This document shows positions 16,919 to 25,018 of a stretch of 25,509 bases of DNA, piece after piece. Under the pieces are notes generated by a model. The model saw nothing but the letters and a program-made list of their open reading frames with translations, made no database searches and was not told the origin of the DNA. Position 1 is the first letter of the stretch. Each line of letters starts with the position of its first letter. This DNA comes from a virus. The stretch covers positions 1 to 25,509 of the IMG/VR virus record IMGVR_UViG_3300049841_000067; one strand, 5' to 3'. The position numbers were made by a program, and so were the translations under genes.

Positions 16919-19009
16919 ATGGGCATGCTTATTAAAAACCCACCAGCAGACGGCGAGCAAGGCCCAGCGGGACCGCAAGGGCCTGCGGGTCCAACTGGCC
17001 CCCAAGGCCCCATGGGTGCAACCGGATCAACAGGACCACAAGGACCACAAGGGCCGGCTGGTGCCACGGGACCGCAGGGGCCAGAGGGTCCAGCAGGGTC
17101 GGACGGTTACGAAGGCCCAGAGGGGCCGCAGGGTGAGCCAGGGGCTGATGGTCCTCCTGGTGAGCAGGGTCCAGAAGGCCCCGAAGGTCCCGAGGGGCCG
17201 CAAGGGCCGGCTGGTCCTGCTGGCCCAGCTGGGCCGACCGGGGCCACTGGTTCGACGGGTCCAGCTGGCCCGAGTGGTGGTCAGTGGTTTGTTGGCTCGG
17301 GAGCGCCATCGGCAGGCACGGGCGTCAACGGTGACTTTTATCTGGATTCCGCGACGGGCAACGTATACTCCAAGTCTGGCGGAACATGGAGCGTCAGCGC
17401 GAATATCAAAGGCCCGACCGGCTCCGCTGGTGCGGCTGGCCCAGGTGTCGCTACGGGCGGCGTGGCTACGCAGGTTCTCAAGAAAAACTCGGCGACAAAC
17501 TATGATACCGTCTGGTCGGATAACGACACGCTGCAGTCAACGCAGACTTTCAGCGGCACCAATGGGATGGTGGGGGCGCTCAAGCTTAAGCCGGCCAATG
17601 GCAGTGTGGGCGGCTTCCCAGGTGCTGGTATCTATGTGGATGATGGCCGGTACAACGGCACCACGTACAACATCGGTTATAAATGTATTGATCTGATGAC
17701 AGGAGCTTGGTCAACGAATGGCCCGATAAATGCGGGGGCCTATGCCTGCGTGTTGCTTGCCGGCCAGCTCAACCGGATCACTGCAGGCGTCAACTATTCT
17801 GCAATCGTTGCCGGCAATAACAACGAGCTTAAGGGTAACTCGCTCAACGGTATCTACAATTCCGCTGGCTCCACCGTCTACGGCGGCGCTGGCAATACCA
17901 TCATGGGCACCGACACGTCTTATACTTCGGGTGATTATAACTTTGTTGCTGGTGGTCGCTTCCATGCGATCGATCACAGCCGCTGTACGGTATTCGGTGA
18001 ATACGTTGTCACGAACGAGGCCGGGGCCATCTACTTCGGTCAGACCGATGGTTCCTTTTCTCAGCATTTCCGCAACGTCACCTTTAAAGTCGGCGGCGCA
18101 AAGCGCAGCCTTTGGATTGGTCACGCCGTAAACCTCGCCTCTGGTGCAGGTATTGACGGGCAGGTCGGGGCAGCGGAAAACACGCTTTGGCTCCAGACGA
18201 CCTACAGAACCTATGAATCCAACGCTTTCGGCATCCGTGCGGCCCCTGACATGACGACCAAAGTTCGTCAGATCATGCCGACCGCTGCGCCGATCGCAGG
18301 CGACCGCATGCGCGTGGGATCCGTGGCGTTGACGAGTGGTGTCAACGAAGTCTCGATGGTATGGCAAGGCTCGCAGGTAGTGACGGCGGCGGCGGGCTCC
18401 GCGCTGACCGTTGACTTCCTTACTGGTCGCTCGCAAAAAATCACGCTGACAGCCAACTGCACGCTGACGTTCAGCAATGCCGTGGCCGGTGAACGCTATG
18501 ACATCGTCATCGTGCAGGACACGACACCGCGCACCATTACATGGCCTGCGTCCGTGAAATGGCCAGGAGGGGCTGCTATTCCTCTCACCCCAAGCTCTGG
18601 CGGCATCGACGTTATCAGTCTTCTTTATGACGGAACGAACTTCTATGCAACCTATATTCCGTGGGAATACACCAACGCTTCGCTCACGGTTGGGGCAGTC
18701 AGTGGCAGCTGGACCACGACCAGAGCGGTGGGCACGTATTACCGAAATTCTGCTGGCCATCATCGTTTGCGCTTCAATATCGAGGGATCTTTTGCAGCGA
18801 GCCAGGGCGGTGCAACTTACACAATCTCAGGCGTTACCTTCCTGACCGCTGCGCCCCAGGCTTTCTGTGGTGCAGGCGGAAGCGGATACTATGTGGGTCG
18901 GACGGTCGTAACGAGCAACCAACTGACTCAAACAGTCGGAACGTCCGCAACGGCTTATCAACTGTGGGGCGATGTCGAGCTTGATAGTAAGCCGACGTGG
19001 GTTCCATAA
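16919..19009 (+). CDS. Collagen-like tail fibre protein
   Basis: 696 aa, ATG at 16919 with AGAGGTGAG before it. Residues 12-119 consist of 36 uninterrupted Gly-X-Y triplets rich in Pro and Gln, a collagen-like triple-helical shaft. It is followed by [20 protein letters not shown], a module often attached to phage collagen repeats ('W..GsG.Ps...G..GD.Y'). A second short Gly-rich stretch ([13 protein letters not shown]) is at about residue 160. The middle ([39 protein letters not shown]) resembles head-like repeats of trimeric adhesins. The C-terminus is beta-rich. It is the likely host-binding fibre or a decoration of it. Confidence 0.8.
16952..17275 (+). repeat. Collagen-like Gly-X-Y coding repeat
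   Basis: This segment encodes 36 consecutive Gly-X-Y triplets. At DNA level it is a 9-base-flavoured repeat built on GGNCCNNNN with frequent GGGCC/GGTCC and CAAGG units. Such tracts are prone to expansion and contraction by slippage or recombination. Confidence 0.85.
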
Positions 19010-19754: not shown

Positions 19755-19772
19755 CCATTGTAAGAGGTGGCT

Positions 19773-20231
19773 ATGAGTTTTCTTGTCGGCGGTATTCTGG
19801 AAGGTGGCGCAAAGCTCCTGGATGGCGTCAAGGGCCTCGTTTCCGAGTTTCACTTGGCCCCCGAGCAGCAAGCGAAGTTTGAACTCGACGCGCAAAAGCT
19901 CATCGCTGATCGCGATGCGCAGCTTGAGCAGACGCTTCGCCAGCAACTCGAATCACGGGAAAAAATCATCGTCGCCGAGATGCAGACGGGGGATAAGGTC
20001 ACGCGCTGGGCTCGTCCTGGTATCGTATGGGCCGGCCTGCTGTTCATGGGCATGACGAACGTCCTCATCCCCTCCGCAGCGTTCTTTATGAGCCGACCCA
20101 TGCCGACGCTCAACATGGACCCTCACTTTTGGGATGCGTGGACGATCGTTGTCAGCGTTTGGGCGGGCGGCAGGAGCCTTGAAAAGATGGGTGTTCCGAA
20201 TCCCGTGGCGAAGCTCACCGGCAAGAAATAA
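19773..20231 (+). CDS. Holin, 3TM / GTA-holin-like
   Basis: 152 aa from the ATG at 19773 (AGAGG at 19764-19768; a GTG six bases upstream is also possible). A short amphipathic N-terminus is followed by a charged helix with Gln and Glu (about residues 28-70), then TRWARPGIVWAGLLFMGMTN and PHFWDAWTIVVSVWAGGRSL. Hydrophobic segments are at about 83-106 and 118-133. 'R.ARP' before a membrane helix and 'GRS.EK' after the last one are typical of the 3TM holin family found in proteobacterial phages and gene transfer agents. It makes inner membrane holes that release the endolysin. Confidence 0.78.
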   Translation: MSFLVGGILEGGAKLLDGVKGLVSEFHLAPEQQAKFELDAQKLIADRDAQLEQTLRQQLESREKIIVAEMQTGDKVTRWARPGIVWAGLLFMGMTNVLIPSAAFFMSRPMPTLNMDPHFWDAWTIVVSVWAGGRSLEKMGVPNPVAKLTGKK

Positions 20232-20236
20232 AATGC

Positions 20237-20264
20237 GAGGCCCCCTGGTAAAACAAGGGGCCTC
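20237..20264 (+). terminator. Strong hairpin after the holin gene, possible terminator
   Basis: GAGGCCCC (20237-20244) pairs perfectly with GGGGCCTC (20257-20264). There is no T-run after it, so termination would be weak or factor-dependent. It lies between convergent genes (the holin and the 76-aa minus-strand gene) and can act in both directions. Confidence 0.5.
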
Positions 20265-20290: not shown

Positions 20291-20521
20291 CTACGAAACC
20301 AGGAAAAAGAGCAGTGAAAAAAGGCAGATCAAGGCAAAAGTCGCCCAATACAAAGCCGACTCCTGGTCAGCTTTGCTTGGTTTAACATCAATCCTTGGCG
20401 TGCTCATCATACCACAGCCCCCGCATTCCAGCTCCTGAAAACTTCCCTTATTCAAAAAAACACCCACGCACTGATAACCGCAGCACGGATAGAAAAGGCT
20501 GGCTCTCGTCCATTTGGGCAT
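20291..20521 (-). CDS. Small Cys-rich membrane protein (zinc-ribbon-like plus membrane helix), unknown function
   Basis: 76 aa on the minus strand from the ATG at 20521-20519, with GGGAG seven bases before it; an upstream ATG at 20629 would read through the palindrome array and is less likely. Residues 11-18 (YPCCGYQC) and 32-37 (ECGGCG) give five Cys in a spacing that could bind zinc. Residues 57-75 (LYWATFALICLFSLLFFLVS) are a clear membrane segment at the very C-terminus. It lies against the direction of the lysis genes and directly behind an operator-like array, features of a phage moron. The Cys pattern loosely recalls Lar-type zinc ribbons, but identity is not established. Confidence 0.6.
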   Translation of the reverse strand: MPKWTRASLFYPCCGYQCVGVFLNKGSFQELECGGCGMMSTPRIDVKPSKADQESALYWATFALICLFSLLFFLVS

Positions 20522-20537: not shown

Positions 20538-20679
20538 TGTTGATCACGAGCAACAGTGTGTTGGTCATGACCAACGATGAGCATGACCAACAGTATCGGC
20601 TGGGGAAATGTTGAGCATGACCAACACACCGGAGCCTGCGAGAACCCACGGGTGCGTTAAGTGTTGGTCGTGCCCAACG
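20538..20679. repeat. Cluster of five 18-bp palindromes (array 1)
   Basis: Sites at 20538-20555 (TGTTGATCACGAGCAACA), 20559-20576 (TGTTGGTCATGACCAACG), 20575-20592 (left half weak), 20609-20626 (TGTTGAGCATGACCAACA) and 20662-20679 (TGTTGGTCGTGCCCAACG). The first two start 21 bases apart, two helical turns. The array directly precedes the ribosome binding site of the 76-aa minus-strand gene, so it probably contains its operator or promoter control. A matching cluster is at 22217-22273. Confidence 0.85.
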
Positions 20680-20795
20680 TCTGTCATCTGATGCGGCTAG
20701 ACCTTAGCCTCACTTCTTGAGCCTATATCGTCTCCTAATTCCCCGCCGTTTTTCAATACATATCAGAAACCTACGGTCAGCGCTCAATTCACGCC

Positions 20796-20844
20796 AACGG
20801 CCCCCCGAATGAGGGTTTATACGGGCCGTTCGCGGCCTTCTTTT
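20796..20844 (+). terminator. UUCG-loop terminator with a competing upstream arm (possible attenuator)
   Basis: GGCCG-TTCG-CGGCC (20824-20837) is a tetraloop hairpin followed by TTCTTTT, a good intrinsic terminator on the + strand. The upstream sequence AACGGCCC (20796-20803) is perfectly complementary to GGGCCGTT (20823-20830), which covers the left half of the terminator, so two exclusive folds are possible. It lies upstream of the endolysin gene. Confidence 0.55.
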
Positions 20845-20871
20845 CCCCGATTGTTAACGTCGATTCGACTT

Positions 20872-20900
20872 GCAGCCCCAGCCCCCTCGCTGGTGGCTGC
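20872..20900 (+). other. Hairpin just upstream of the endolysin ribosome binding site
   Basis: GCAGCC-CCAGC pairs with GCTGG-T-GGCTGC as an 11-bp stem with one bulged T and a 6-base loop. It ends seven bases before GGTGGAG (20907-20913), the ribosome binding site of the endolysin. It may modulate translation or, with the attenuator above, form a structured leader. Confidence 0.5.
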
Positions 20901-20920
20901 ATTTCGGTGGAGAAAACTGG

Positions 20921-21403
20921 ATGAATAAGAAAGGTCTTGACCTGATTAAGCTTTACGAGTCGTTCAAGGCGAAACCCTACCTCTGCCCAGCAGGTATTCC
21001 AACGATCGGCTACGGGTCCACATTCTACCAGGACGGGCGCAAGGTCACGCTCGCGGACAAGCCCATTAGTGAGGGTGAGGGGTACCGGCTCATGGTCTGG
21101 CATGTTGGTCAGATCACCCCTGAAGTGTTGCGCATGATCAACGTCGAGCTGACAGAAAATCAGCTGGCCGCTCTGGAATCGCTGGCCTACAACATCGGCC
21201 TGGATCGCCTGCAGGGCTCAACGCTGCTGCGTATGCTGAATAACAAGGATTACGCCGGGGCCGCTGATCAGTTCATCGTCTGGAACAAGGGCAGGGTTGG
21301 AGGGAAGCTAGTGGTACTTTCCGGCCTTACCAAGCGCCGCGCGGACGAGCGCCGGTTGTTTCTCTCGCCTGACGATGAAGAGGATACTAATGGAACCGTC
21401 TAA
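20921..21403 (+). CDS. Endolysin, lysozyme-type muramidase (GH24)
   Basis: 160 aa from the ATG at 20921, which has GGTGGAG eight bases before it; an earlier in-frame ATG at 20870 lies in the leader hairpins and is less likely. The catalytic pattern Glu-8-Cys-5-Thr is present: E13 in LYESF, C22 in YLCPAG, T28 in IPTIGYG, as in P22-type lysozymes where Cys replaces Asp. LTENQLAALESLAYNIG and GLTKRRADERRLFL are also typical. No signal or SAR helix is seen, so release depends on the holin. It cleaves peptidoglycan glycan strands. Confidence 0.9.
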   Translation: MNKKGLDLIKLYESFKAKPYLCPAGIPTIGYGSTFYQDGRKVTLADKPISEGEGYRLMVWHVGQITPEVLRMINVELTENQLAALESLAYNIGLDRLQGSTLLRMLNNKDYAGAADQFIVWNKGRVGGKLVVLSGLTKRRADERRLFLSPDDEEDTNGTV

Positions 21404-21761
21404 CATTGCGAACGTCCAGAACTTTGCCGCTGTGCAAAGCCTGATAGCTGTTTACAGCTTCATCTCATCGCCGCCGATTATCGTAGGCGTTGTCTGGTGG
21501 CTGGTTAAACGCTACTTCGGAAAACAGGAGGAGCTTATAAAGGGCCTCACGACCAGCATGGACGACGTTAAGCTCAAGATTGCGCTGTATGACAGCAAGT
21601 CCAAAGCGCTCGACGACGCCCTGACCAACGTCAGCAAAATGCGGGACGACATAACCATCCTGAAGTCGAAGCTTGACGCGGCGTTCCGCATCATTGACCA
21701 CTTGACAAGCTTTGAAAAAGACGTAGAAAACCGGCTCAAACCAACCCCCAAACCCCAGTAA
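21390..21761 (+). CDS. Membrane-anchored coiled-coil protein, spanin-like (i-spanin candidate)
   Basis: 123 aa from the ATG at 21390 (AGAGG just upstream), overlapping the end of the endolysin gene; an in-frame ATG at 21375 is an alternative. One hydrophobic segment lies at residues 17-39 (SLIAVYSFISSPPIIVGVVW), then a long charged helix with heptad character (about residues 45-110), ending in KPTPKPQ. The layout, N-terminal membrane anchor plus periplasmic coiled coil immediately after endolysin, matches Rz-type inner membrane spanins. No overlapping Rz1-like lipoprotein was found by eye, so an XhlA-like or other accessory role remains possible. Confidence 0.55.
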   Translation: MEPSNIANVQNFAAVQSLIAVYSFISSPPIIVGVVWWLVKRYFGKQEELIKGLTTSMDDVKLKIALYDSKSKALDDALTNVSKMRDDITILKSKLDAAFRIIDHLTSFEKDVENRLKPTPKPQ

Positions 21762-21793
21762 TCTGCATAAAAACCCTACAGGAACCCCACCGG

Positions 21794-21810
21794 GGAGGCT
21801 CAACGCCTCC
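21794..21810. terminator. Hairpin between convergent genes
   Basis: GGAGGC-TCAAC-GCCTCC is a 6-bp stem in the 49-base gap between the spanin-like gene (+) and the Uma2-like gene (-). Read on the minus strand, a further CCCC-GGT-GGGG hairpin and a T-run (21772-21776) follow, so it may serve minus-strand transcripts best. Confidence 0.5.
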
Positions 21811-22203
21811 TCACCCCTTCCCCAACAGCTCGCGGAATATAGCCCGGATGCCTTCCAGCTCGTTCGGATTGCCCATGTAATTGCCCTTGGCGTCCAAACC
21901 CAGCAATTCGAGCCAATCCCGAGCGATATCATAGACGACATAGAAGGGCACACCATTGGATTGGTACAGCTCGCGCTTATAGCCGAAGTCGGCCTTTTGC
22001 GTCGTCTGCGCAATCTCCACTACAACCCACGGCTGTTGGCCTTTCCAGCCGATCAAGTCTGGCTCTGGGTTAGTCTTGTCCTCGAAATTCAGCGTCACAG
22101 GCCCGGTCCAGACCAGTTCTGGTAGTATGGAAATGCAAGCGCGCGCCATCAACAGCTGGAAGCGGCCATGATCGAAGCCAACGGGCGACATCAGCAATGC
22201 CAT
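21811..22203 (-). CDS. Uma2-like PD-(D/E)XK nuclease family protein
   Basis: 130 aa on the minus strand, ATG at 22203 with AAGGGGGAG immediately upstream. The core NPEPDLIGW (D49), PWVVVEIAQTT (E63), ADFGYKRELYQSNGVPFYVV (D72, K76) and YD match the Uma2 (DUF820) pattern 'PDl...p.lvvEi.S.....D...K...Y...GV.eYwvvD'. Uma2 proteins are restriction-endonuclease-fold proteins common in cyanobacteria and other bacteria, function mostly unknown. It is shorter than the usual ~180-200 aa, lacking much of the N-terminal part. It lies opposite to the lysis genes behind array 2, as a moron-like cargo gene. Confidence 0.7.
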   Translation of the reverse strand: MALLMSPVGFDHGRFQLLMARACISILPELVWTGPVTLNFEDKTNPEPDLIGWKGQQPWVVVEIAQTTQKADFGYKRELYQSNGVPFYVVYDIARDWLELLGLDAKGNYMGNPNELEGIRAIFRELLGKG

Positions 22204-22216
22204 GGCTCCCCCTTAG

Positions 22217-22273
22217 TGTTGCTCGCGCTCAACACGTTGGTCATGACCAACACACTGTTGCTCGTGATCAACA
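22217..22273. repeat. Cluster of three 18-bp palindromes (array 2), inverted copy of part of array 1
   Basis: Sites at 22217-22234 (TGTTGCTCGCGCTCAACA), 22235-22252 (CGTTGGTCATGACCAACA) and 22256-22273 (TGTTGCTCGTGATCAACA). Bases 22235-22273 are the exact reverse complement of 20538-20576 over 39 bases. The cluster fills the gap between the stop codon of the XRE gene and the ribosome binding site of the Uma2-like gene. Confidence 0.88.
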
Positions 22274-22621
22274 TTAGCTAGCCTTCTTCTGCTTGGGTAT
22301 GGTGCCGATATGCAGGCCGGCATCAGCCAGCATTTTGTTGATCATGAACAACGCGTCAGCCTGCGTGGTGCCTTGCAGTTCCGCTTTTTTCAGCTTTGCC
22401 GTGTCGCTGGTGAATAGGTCGGCAACATAAACATGGAAAAGCTCTGCAAGCTTGTCCATTGCCTCAGCAGTGGGCATGCAAAAATTCTCGGCGTTCTCAT
22501 ACCTGGAGATCATTGCGGGGCTCACACCCACAAAAGCGGCGACCTGGGCTTGTGTGTAGCCGTTGAGGGATCGTAGCGCCTCTACATTCCTTGCGAAAAT
22601 TCCTTGTGTAATAGATGCCAC
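22274..22621 (-). CDS. XRE-family HTH transcriptional regulator (repressor candidate)
   Basis: 115 aa on the minus strand with a GTG start at 22621-22619; GGTGGAGG lies seven bases upstream. Residues 15-65 form a Cro/CI-type helix-turn-helix (GYTQAQVAAFVGVSPAMISR followed by YENAENF). The C-terminal 45 residues (KKAELQGTTQADALFMINKM) may serve dimerisation. It is transcribed divergently from the RecT-like gene, across repeats that are likely its own operators. This suggests it controls the early genes, as CI/Cro-like regulators do. It lacks a LexA/CI-type protease domain. Confidence 0.82.
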   Translation of the reverse strand: MASITQGIFARNVEALRSLNGYTQAQVAAFVGVSPAMISRYENAENFCMPTAEAMDKLAELFHVYVADLFTSDTAKLKKAELQGTTQADALFMINKMLADAGLHIGTIPKQKKAS

Positions 22622-22643: not shown

Positions 22644-22738
22644 TTTGCATTTAATCATTATTACAATTTGCGTTTAAGGACAAGTCTGGTGGGTGCTCAT
22701 TTATCAAATAAAAACGCCGTGCTTGCATTTAATAAATG
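22644..22738. promoter_or_regulatory. Divergent control region with three TTGCATTTAAT-type repeats and a promoter for the RecT-like gene
   Basis: TTTGCATTTAAT (22644-22655), TTTGCGTTTAAG (22667-22678) and CTTGCATTTAAT (22722-22733) are direct repeats in the A/T-rich region between the XRE gene and the RecT-like gene. CATTTA-A-TAAATG (22726-22738) is also a palindrome. TTGCAT (22723-22728), 17 bases, TATCAA (22746-22751) fit a sigma-70 promoter whose -35 box lies inside the third repeat, so binding of the XRE protein would block it. Confidence 0.5.
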
Positions 22739-23891: not shown

Positions 23892-24003
23892 AGCCACAGA
23901 ACCCGCGTCCCGCAAGCCCCTTTCAAAATTAAAACCCGAAAAAACAAAACCCGCGTCTGGCGCGGGCTTGAGAAAAAAGAATGAGGTTTTGTCTCATGGA
24001 TGA
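23881..24003 (+). CDS. Possible 40-aa leader peptide upstream of the replication gene
   Basis: ATG at 23881 with GGAGGG nine bases upstream; a short basic product beginning MTNIATEPASRKPLSKLKPE and ending in NEVLSHG. Its end overlaps the start of the replication initiator by eight bases, as expected of a translationally coupled leader. It also contains the hairpin at 23950-23966. It may be a real small gene or only a remnant of duplication. Confidence 0.4.
   Translation: MTNIATEPASRKPLSKLKPEKTKPASGAGLRKKNEVLSHG
23942..23967 (-). terminator. Minus-strand terminator-like hairpin
   Basis: CCCGCG-TCTGG-CGCGGG is a perfect 6-bp stem. On the minus strand it is followed by TTTTGTTTTTT, which is a strong intrinsic terminator for leftward transcripts; on the + strand there is no T-run after it. 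Confidence 0.55.
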
Positions 24004-25018
24004 GCGTAAAAATCAAGGTCACGAACGACATTTTTATGACGAGCAAGTCTTTGTCAAATGGACTCACATTAACCAGTTCATCATCTTCTGTGATGGAATT
24101 AGTCGCTCTGTTGGAGGCGGCAACGCCAAGCTGGTCATGGGTCAGAACATGATTTGCATAATGACGCTGCTTGTTAATCATATGGGGCGGCAGAATGTAG
24201 ATGGTCTGGATATCGACGAAAAGGACATAGCTCAGGCTTTCTGGGGCGCTCAGTCTTACATTCAGCGGGAAACGGGGATGTCACAGAGCCGAGTCAGCGA
24301 AGCTCTGTCAGCTCTCGTTGATTCAGGGGTCCTAGTTAGGGATGTCGAGGAGGGCACAACCTTTTACGCATTCTCGCCGCGCACTATCCAGGCTGCCATT
24401 GAGTACAGCAAAATGAAGTACGAAAAGGAGCGGGCAAGGCTAAAGCCGGGTAGACCAGCTGTTAAGTCAAAAATACCCATCCGGGACGCGGATATGACCC
24501 ATCCGGGACGCGGATATGACCCATCCGGGTCCCGGATGCGCCCCATCCGGGTCCCGGATATGACCCATCCGGGACCCGGATGCGCCCCCTTTATAGAAGA
24601 AAGATCTAAGGATTTATCGATCGAACCAAAGAGTGAATCACAAATGGATGGATGGAATGGCGGCGCGAATGACGCACCGCCCAGCCAGCCAATTGTGAGT
24701 GATGATTTTAAACCGATGAGCGGGAAGCATCTGGCTGACTTCATCGAGCTATGCAAGCGCATAGAGTGGCAGATTTCCAGGGGTGACAAGAGCTTCGTGC
24801 ATTGGCCCACTACCCAGGATTTTATTCTGGAGAAGTGGAAGGAGAAGGGGGAAAGGCACCTGCACGGCTTCGAGGGGTGGCTTCAAACAAAGATGTCGCA
24901 GAGACTGGCTAACGGTCGAATGTTCAAGAAGTCTGCGCCTTGGGATGCGCGCTTGAAGTTCTGCTGGGAGCTGTTTCTTGATGAATTGAGATGCAAAGAA
25001 GAGGAGCTTCGGCAATGA
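23996..25018 (+). CDS. Phage replication initiator with winged-helix domain, containing iterons (lambda O-like organisation)
   Basis: 340 aa from the ATG at 23996 (GAGG eight bases upstream); another in-frame ATG at 23981 is possible. Residues 93-129 (TGMSQSRVSEALSALVDSGV, then YAFSP) are a winged helix-turn-helix, inside an N-terminal DNA-binding domain of about 150 residues. Residues 161-197 are encoded by the five 22-bp iterons and form a Pro/Arg/Asp/Gly-rich linker. The C-terminal 130 residues (SGKHLADFIELCKRIEWQIS; FEGWLQTKMSQ) are a helical domain that may contact a helicase or its loader. DNA-binding N-terminus, iteron-bearing linker and helicase-contact C-terminus mirror lambda O. The next gene overlaps it as ATGA. 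Confidence 0.72.
   Translation: MDERKNQGHERHFYDEQVFVKWTHINQFIIFCDGISRSVGGGNAKLVMGQNMICIMTLLVNHMGRQNVDGLDIDEKDIAQAFWGAQSYIQRETGMSQSRVSEALSALVDSGVLVRDVEEGTTFYAFSPRTIQAAIEYSKMKYEKERARLKPGRPAVKSKIPIRDADMTHPGRGYDPSGSRMRPIRVPDMTHPGPGCAPFIEERSKDLSIEPKSESQMDGWNGGANDAPPSQPIVSDDFKPMSGKHLADFIELCKRIEWQISRGDKSFVHWPTTQDFILEKWKEKGERHLHGFEGWLQTKMSQRLANGRMFKKSAPWDARLKFCWELFLDELRCKEEELRQ
24476..24585 (+). repeat. Five tandem 22-bp iterons: candidate phage replication origin
   Basis: Five consecutive 22-base units start at 24476, 24498, 24520, 24542 and 24564. Each begins CCCATCCGGG; units 1 and 2 are identical. Units 3-5 contain a perfect dyad ATCCGGG-T/A-CCCGGAT. 22 is not a multiple of 3, so the repeat is maintained at the DNA level, not for its protein. 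The unit equals two helical turns. An A/T-richer stretch follows (24589-24630), where strands could open. It lies inside the replication initiator gene, as in lambda. Confidence 0.82.

Follow-up and report, generated by a model that had tools for sequence, protein, structure and literature searches.

Clustered 18-bp palindromes around the lysis genes of a tailed phage as putative operators of a dimeric regulator

Repeated binding sites in described phages

In lambda-type phages, the operators OL and OR are arranged in tandem and consist of 17-18-bp imperfect palindromes, which are bound by a dimeric helix-turn-helix (HTH) repressor. Repeated sites of other kinds are also described. For instance, the stoperators of mycobacteriophages are 13-bp asymmetric sites that occur genome-wide and in one orientation (PMC6550527, PMC9283540), the centromere of phage N15 is made of 18-bp palindromes dispersed over 12 kb (PMC7205306), and the late-activator sites of P2 Ogr and P4 Delta have the form TGT-N12-ACA (PMC3931495).

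Here, we describe ten palindromes of 18 bp in a stretch of 25,509 bases (the window), which is a linear, partial contig of a tailed phage (Table 1). These palindromes resemble lambda OL/OR in that at least three of them are in tandem, about two turns apart, in two clusters that are kilobases apart, and in that their inner bases are degenerate. Unlike OL/OR, however, the clusters bracket lysis/moron genes and not early promoters, two of the sites are inside genes, and the motif is unrelated in sequence. As with stoperators, there are many copies of one site, some of them away from promoters; by contrast, the window sites are dyads that are confined to 1.8 kb. The sites of N15 occur singly and hardly vary, while those of the window are degenerate and tandem. 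Finally, the palindrome formally fits the P2 Ogr/P4 Delta pattern. Nevertheless, P2-type late promoters were rejected, as the annotated activator sites of P2 lack the GTTG-N8-CAAC dyad; a search of the window for an Ogr_Delta zinc-finger activator (PF04606) gave no match.

The palindrome and its distribution

The ten dyads match the consensus Y-GTTG-N-K-C-R followed by Y-G-M-N-CAAC-R, that is, a YGTTGVKCR half-site repeated with dyad symmetry and a conserved arm. All of them are located between positions 20538 and 22353, and a motif search of the rest of the 25,509-base window returned no further copy. The core GTTGNKCRYGMNCAAC is exact in nine sites, and the remaining one, at 20575, departs from the conserved arm at one position. 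A third-order Markov model would predict 0.0025 exact cores per window; with up to three mismatches allowed, 11 matches are seen against 0.06 expected from dinucleotide shuffles. When a motif matrix made from the ten window sites together with two sites from another phage contig (L055, see below) is used in one scoring, the ten sites score 22-28 and the best other place in the window scores 12.8. The palindrome sequence was not found in the open literature that was searched, and an Rfam search of the window gave nothing above chance.

An earlier note on this DNA had listed eight sites, five at 20538-20679 and three at 22217-22273. All eight are found at those positions, and the true total is ten, with sites 6 and 10 as the additions. 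Eight of the ten sit in two gene leaders and these two in coding sequence; thus, the motif is not limited to gene leaders. Sampling of synonymous codons yields site 6 in 0.6% of cases and site 10 in 0.9%, and such rare codon combinations imply that both were probably selected as sites too. In both clusters there are tandem steps of 21 bp, which correspond to two helical turns. The exact 39-bp reverse complement shared by the clusters, which had also been noticed before, was confirmed and comprises sites 1 and 2 in one cluster and sites 8 and 9 in the other.

Table 1. Palindromic sites and neighbouring genes in the window
Feature	Positions	Strand	Sequence	Matrix score	Remarks
Holin, 3TM	19767..20231	+			PF11351, 4.5e-18; outside the bracketed segment
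76-aa Cys-rich ORF	20291..20521	-			C-terminal hydrophobic stretch; five sites 5′ of start
39-bp unit, sites 1 and 2	20538..20576	+			perfect inverted copy of 22235-22273
Site 1	20538..20555		TGTTGATCACGAGCAACA	26.9
Site 2	20559..20576		TGTTGGTCATGACCAACG	27.8	21 bp from site 1
Site 3, degenerate	20575..20592		CGATGAGCATGACCAACA	22.1	shares 2 bases with site 2
Site 4	20609..20626		TGTTGAGCATGACCAACA	27.3
Site 5	20662..20679		TGTTGGTCGTGCCCAACG	24.1
Phage lysozyme	20924..21403	+			PF00959, 3e-34
Site 6	21126..21143		TGTTGCGCATGATCAACG		within lysozyme gene (VLRMIN)
Rz-like/small lysis-cassette ORF	21375..21761	+			only weak PHROG matches, of unknown function
Uma2-family (PD-(D/E)XK-like) ORF	21811..22203	-			Pfam E=1e-13; three sites 5′ of start
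Site 7	22217..22234		TGTTGCTCGCGCTCAACA	23.3	13 bp 5′ of Uma2 ATG
39-bp unit, sites 8 and 9	22235..22273	-			perfect inverted copy of 20538-20576
Site 8	22235..22252		CGTTGGTCATGACCAACA	27.8
Site 9	22256..22273		TGTTGCTCGTGATCAACA	26.9	adjoins XRE stop codon; 21 bp from site 8
XRE/HTH_3 regulator	22274..22621	-			RstR/PezA-like HTH
Site 10	22336..22353		TGTTGATCATGAACAACG		within XRE gene (ALFMIN)

Genes around the two clusters

Both clusters lie just upstream of minus-strand genes, as had been noted before, and each is followed directly, in the direction of the gene, by a Shine-Dalgarno-like stretch and an ATG. The gap between the nearest site and the start codon is 16 bases for the 76-aa ORF and 13 for the Uma2 ORF. 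A search at either cluster for a sigma-70-like promoter gave none above background, and the promoters of the host may differ from the sigma-70 type. A plausible Shine-Dalgarno sequence precedes the 76-aa ORF, which has no family match and weak codon-usage support (0.03 bits per codon, against 0.26-0.37 in its neighbours). The Uma2 ORF, with its Pfam match (E=1e-13), is solid.

A strong hairpin (20237-20264) follows the holin gene, and a second, terminator-like one (20823-20848) is situated between the first cluster and the lysozyme gene; the lysozyme must consequently use its own promoter downstream of this hairpin, or antitermination. To the right of the XRE gene, there are divergently oriented genes for RecT-like and O-like replication proteins. 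The first ~23 positions of the family profile are missing from the Uma2 ORF, and in a six-frame comparison the profile match runs upstream through the palindrome cluster (21811-22263), over a TAA stop. The gene may therefore be truncated at its N-terminus, or the extension may be due to chance. Among phages and plasmids, no match to the Uma2 protein was found.

Occurrence in other phages and in bacteria

The earlier note had proposed a search for the motif in the rest of the phage, in related phages and in hosts. When 2.9 million viral contigs were scanned for two dyads within 30 bp, the same motif pair was found outside the window in a single contig, L055, and a scan of viral contigs for pairs with gaps of 31-61 bp found none. 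The L055 pair consists of TGTTGATCATGAGCAACA and CGTTGATCATGAGCAACA, 45 bp apart and in direct orientation, and lies 26 bases upstream of a minus-strand gene, before its ribosome-binding site (RBS); this gene leads a RusA-terminase-portal run. L055 shows no match to any of the window proteins that were compared. Thus, the motif is common to both phages without shared genes, which suggests a regulator that is either linked to host range or widely used. Komagataeibacter phages phiKX1/2, which have the nearest matches for the window RecT and the L055 portal, lack the motif. In the collections searched, no close relative turned up for the phage as a whole, for its sheath, XRE, Uma2 and 76-aa proteins or for the L055 gene. 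The further matches from a scan of viral contigs for single copies were discarded, as they seem to reflect chance or coding sequence in common. A lone TGTTGATCATGAGCAACA immediately precedes the RBS of a tape-measure gene in another phage (L080:8091-8108); it could be a genuine site or a chance match.

Among 84,980 prokaryotic genomes scanned with the tandem consensus, ten stretches were obtained, six of which are actinobacterial arrays of GTTGnGCATGCnCAAC; the other four seem to be coding repeats or to arise by chance. The actinobacterial arrays share with the window the dyad layout TTG-N-KCR...CAA and a location beside gene starts. They contain three to four copies in tandem, spaced by two or four helical turns (22-23 and 44-46 bp). 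In contrast to the window sites, position 7 is always G, and the arrays precede the regulator's own gene. In five of the six loci, a gene for an EspR-like HTH protein is found directly downstream, followed by a Peptidase_M78-like gene, with the EspR-like assignment taken from weak profile matches (HTH_31, E 0.03; PDB 3r1f, E 0.009). The window XRE has no sequence similarity to these proteins, and the arrays are analogues of the window sites rather than homologues. By analogy, the fact that in cells the tandem dyad architecture is mostly found before an HTH regulator gene supports an operator reading of the window sites. The EspR-like gene, accompanied by its tandem operators and a Peptidase_M78-like gene, is near-identical (96-100%) in contigs of Arthrobacter, Herbiconiux, Leucobacter and Microbacterium, and a 74% relative is present in L139. 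The EspR-like unit of L134, L135, L139, L140 and L142 has the appearance of a regulatory cassette that was transferred recently.

A putative operator array

We are moderately confident that the ten palindromes are operators for one symmetric dimeric HTH protein, encoded in the missing part of the phage or by the host. Two features expected of an operator array are present, namely a repeated dyad with a conserved half-site whose halves vary independently, and a non-random confinement beside gene starts. When the window and L055 sites are taken together, columns 6 and 13 are paired in three of the 12, where shuffles give a mean of 4.2. At columns 7 and 12, T-A, G-A and T-C are seen and G-C never is, and at columns 1/18 and 7/12 no site has more than one non-consensus half. 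Thus, the halves vary independently and without compensation, and the sites look like DNA operators of a symmetric dimer, not like RNA hairpins or REP-like stems. The array as a whole looks like an ordinary control element whose recognition sequence has not been described previously. The earlier note had suggested that one protein could bind both clusters and co-regulate the adjacent genes; a dimeric DNA-binding protein at both is the best reading.

The neighbouring XRE regulator is disfavoured as the binder. The earlier doubt about it holds, as the region between XRE and RecT contains no palindrome (best score -3.4); a promoter without the motif means that XRE is probably not the protein in question. 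This divergent region has three TTGCRTTTAA repeats, at 22645, 22668 and 22723, which are likely the operators of the XRE regulator itself.

According to the mechanism that we propose, a dimeric HTH protein would occupy the ten operators cooperatively, with the 21-bp steps placing adjacent dimers on the same face of the helix, and the occupied sites, immediately before the ribosome-binding sites, would stop minus-strand transcription from passing through the two leaders into the Uma2 and 76-aa ORFs. The 39-bp copy would stem from a duplication of two adjacent sites in inverted orientation, and may have been retained because both copies bind; for the copying itself, the RecT-like annealing protein is at most a candidate. 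The two clusters, 1.7 kb apart, and the two intragenic sites may also be bridged by the dimeric phage or host regulator in a repression loop that would keep the lysozyme/Rz segment silent in the prophage and would also control the Uma2 nuclease and the small membrane protein. This extension is tentative and rather doubtful; if it is true, lysis timing and accessory genes would be under one switch. In any case, the YGTTGVKCR half-site is a precise and testable recognition sequence that is found next to gene starts in two unrelated phages, and the array suggests that the lysis region and a Uma2-family gene are controlled directly through operators.

Alternative readings

The palindromes could also be a parS-like centromere of a phage-plasmid, with a ParB from the missing part segregating an extrachromosomal prophage. 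Such a role would suit palindromes of 16-18 bp that are clustered and indifferent to gene borders, and a putative origin, the 22-bp iterons of the O-like gene, is 2-4 kb away from the sites. There is the precedent of N15, with its 18-bp palindromes spread over 12 kb as a centromere, and Burkholderia parSc3, rebuilt in part from mutant names (PMC5450999), also has GTTG/CAAC arms. Nevertheless, its inner bases are unlike those of the window sites, whose half-sites are 77% alike with four of nine positions fixed, far from the near-identity of N15 (92%, eight of nine), and no ParB_N domain is present in the 25.5 kb of this partial contig. We consider a centromere unlikely.

In the earlier note, the clusters were also considered as possible mobile or recombination sites. 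Neither mobility nor recombination is supported: beyond the motif there is no shared sequence save the duplicated pair, there is no covariation, and no invertase or recombinase was recognised among the window ORFs scanned. The exact, inverted duplication of the 39-bp unit might be a recent jump of REP-like palindromes that spread by themselves and insert beside genes. However, the flanks differ except at that one pair, the inner bases of the remaining sites differ as well, the stems do not covary, and there are sites inside two conserved genes. Moreover, none of the 84,980 genomes carries window-type tandem copies as a dispersed repeat. REP-like elements are thus quite improbable.

Iterons of a replication origin, recognised by a phage initiator, are a still weaker proposal. 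Two other phages (L124 and L126) have TGTTG...CAACA palindromes in tandem, built on another core and located within genes for winged-helix initiators; by contrast, the window has a distinct 22-bp palindromic array in its own O-like gene. Its TGTTG sites lie outside this gene, at a distance of 2 kb, and are split into two clusters. Slightly less credible still is an inversion of the 1.7 kb between the clusters by recombination at these sites. Perfect 39-bp inverted repeats do flank the lysozyme, the Rz-like ORF and Uma2, and the phage encodes a RecT-like annealing protein. Nevertheless, no invertase or site-specific recombinase was recognised among the scanned ORFs of the window (the missing part of the phage could encode one), the eight extra sites of the motif would be senseless as crossover sites, and the L055 pair is direct, not inverted. 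Least probable of all are tandem RNA hairpins that control translation from the minus-strand leaders, since, although in two phages three genes have the sites immediately before their RBS and the leader of the first cluster folds well (z -4.3), the other two leaders do not (z -1.2 and -0.2), the folds are inconsistent between the clusters and L055, mismatches in the inner pairs are uncompensated, and two sites are in coding sequence, the one in lysozyme in a gene of the opposite strand.

Other repeats

Apart from the palindromes, a collagen-like (Gly-X-Y) repeat protein is encoded at 16919-19009, in the tail-fibre position. The O-like gene (23981-25018) contains five tandem repeats of 22 bp (24454-24588), which are palindromes of the ATCCGGGwCSCGGAT type and are likely origin iterons. 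Palindromic iterons with a TGTTG/CAACA arm, TGTTGCACnnnnGCAACA, are found in tandem at L124:7038-7159, with 21-bp steps, and at L126:10743-10779.
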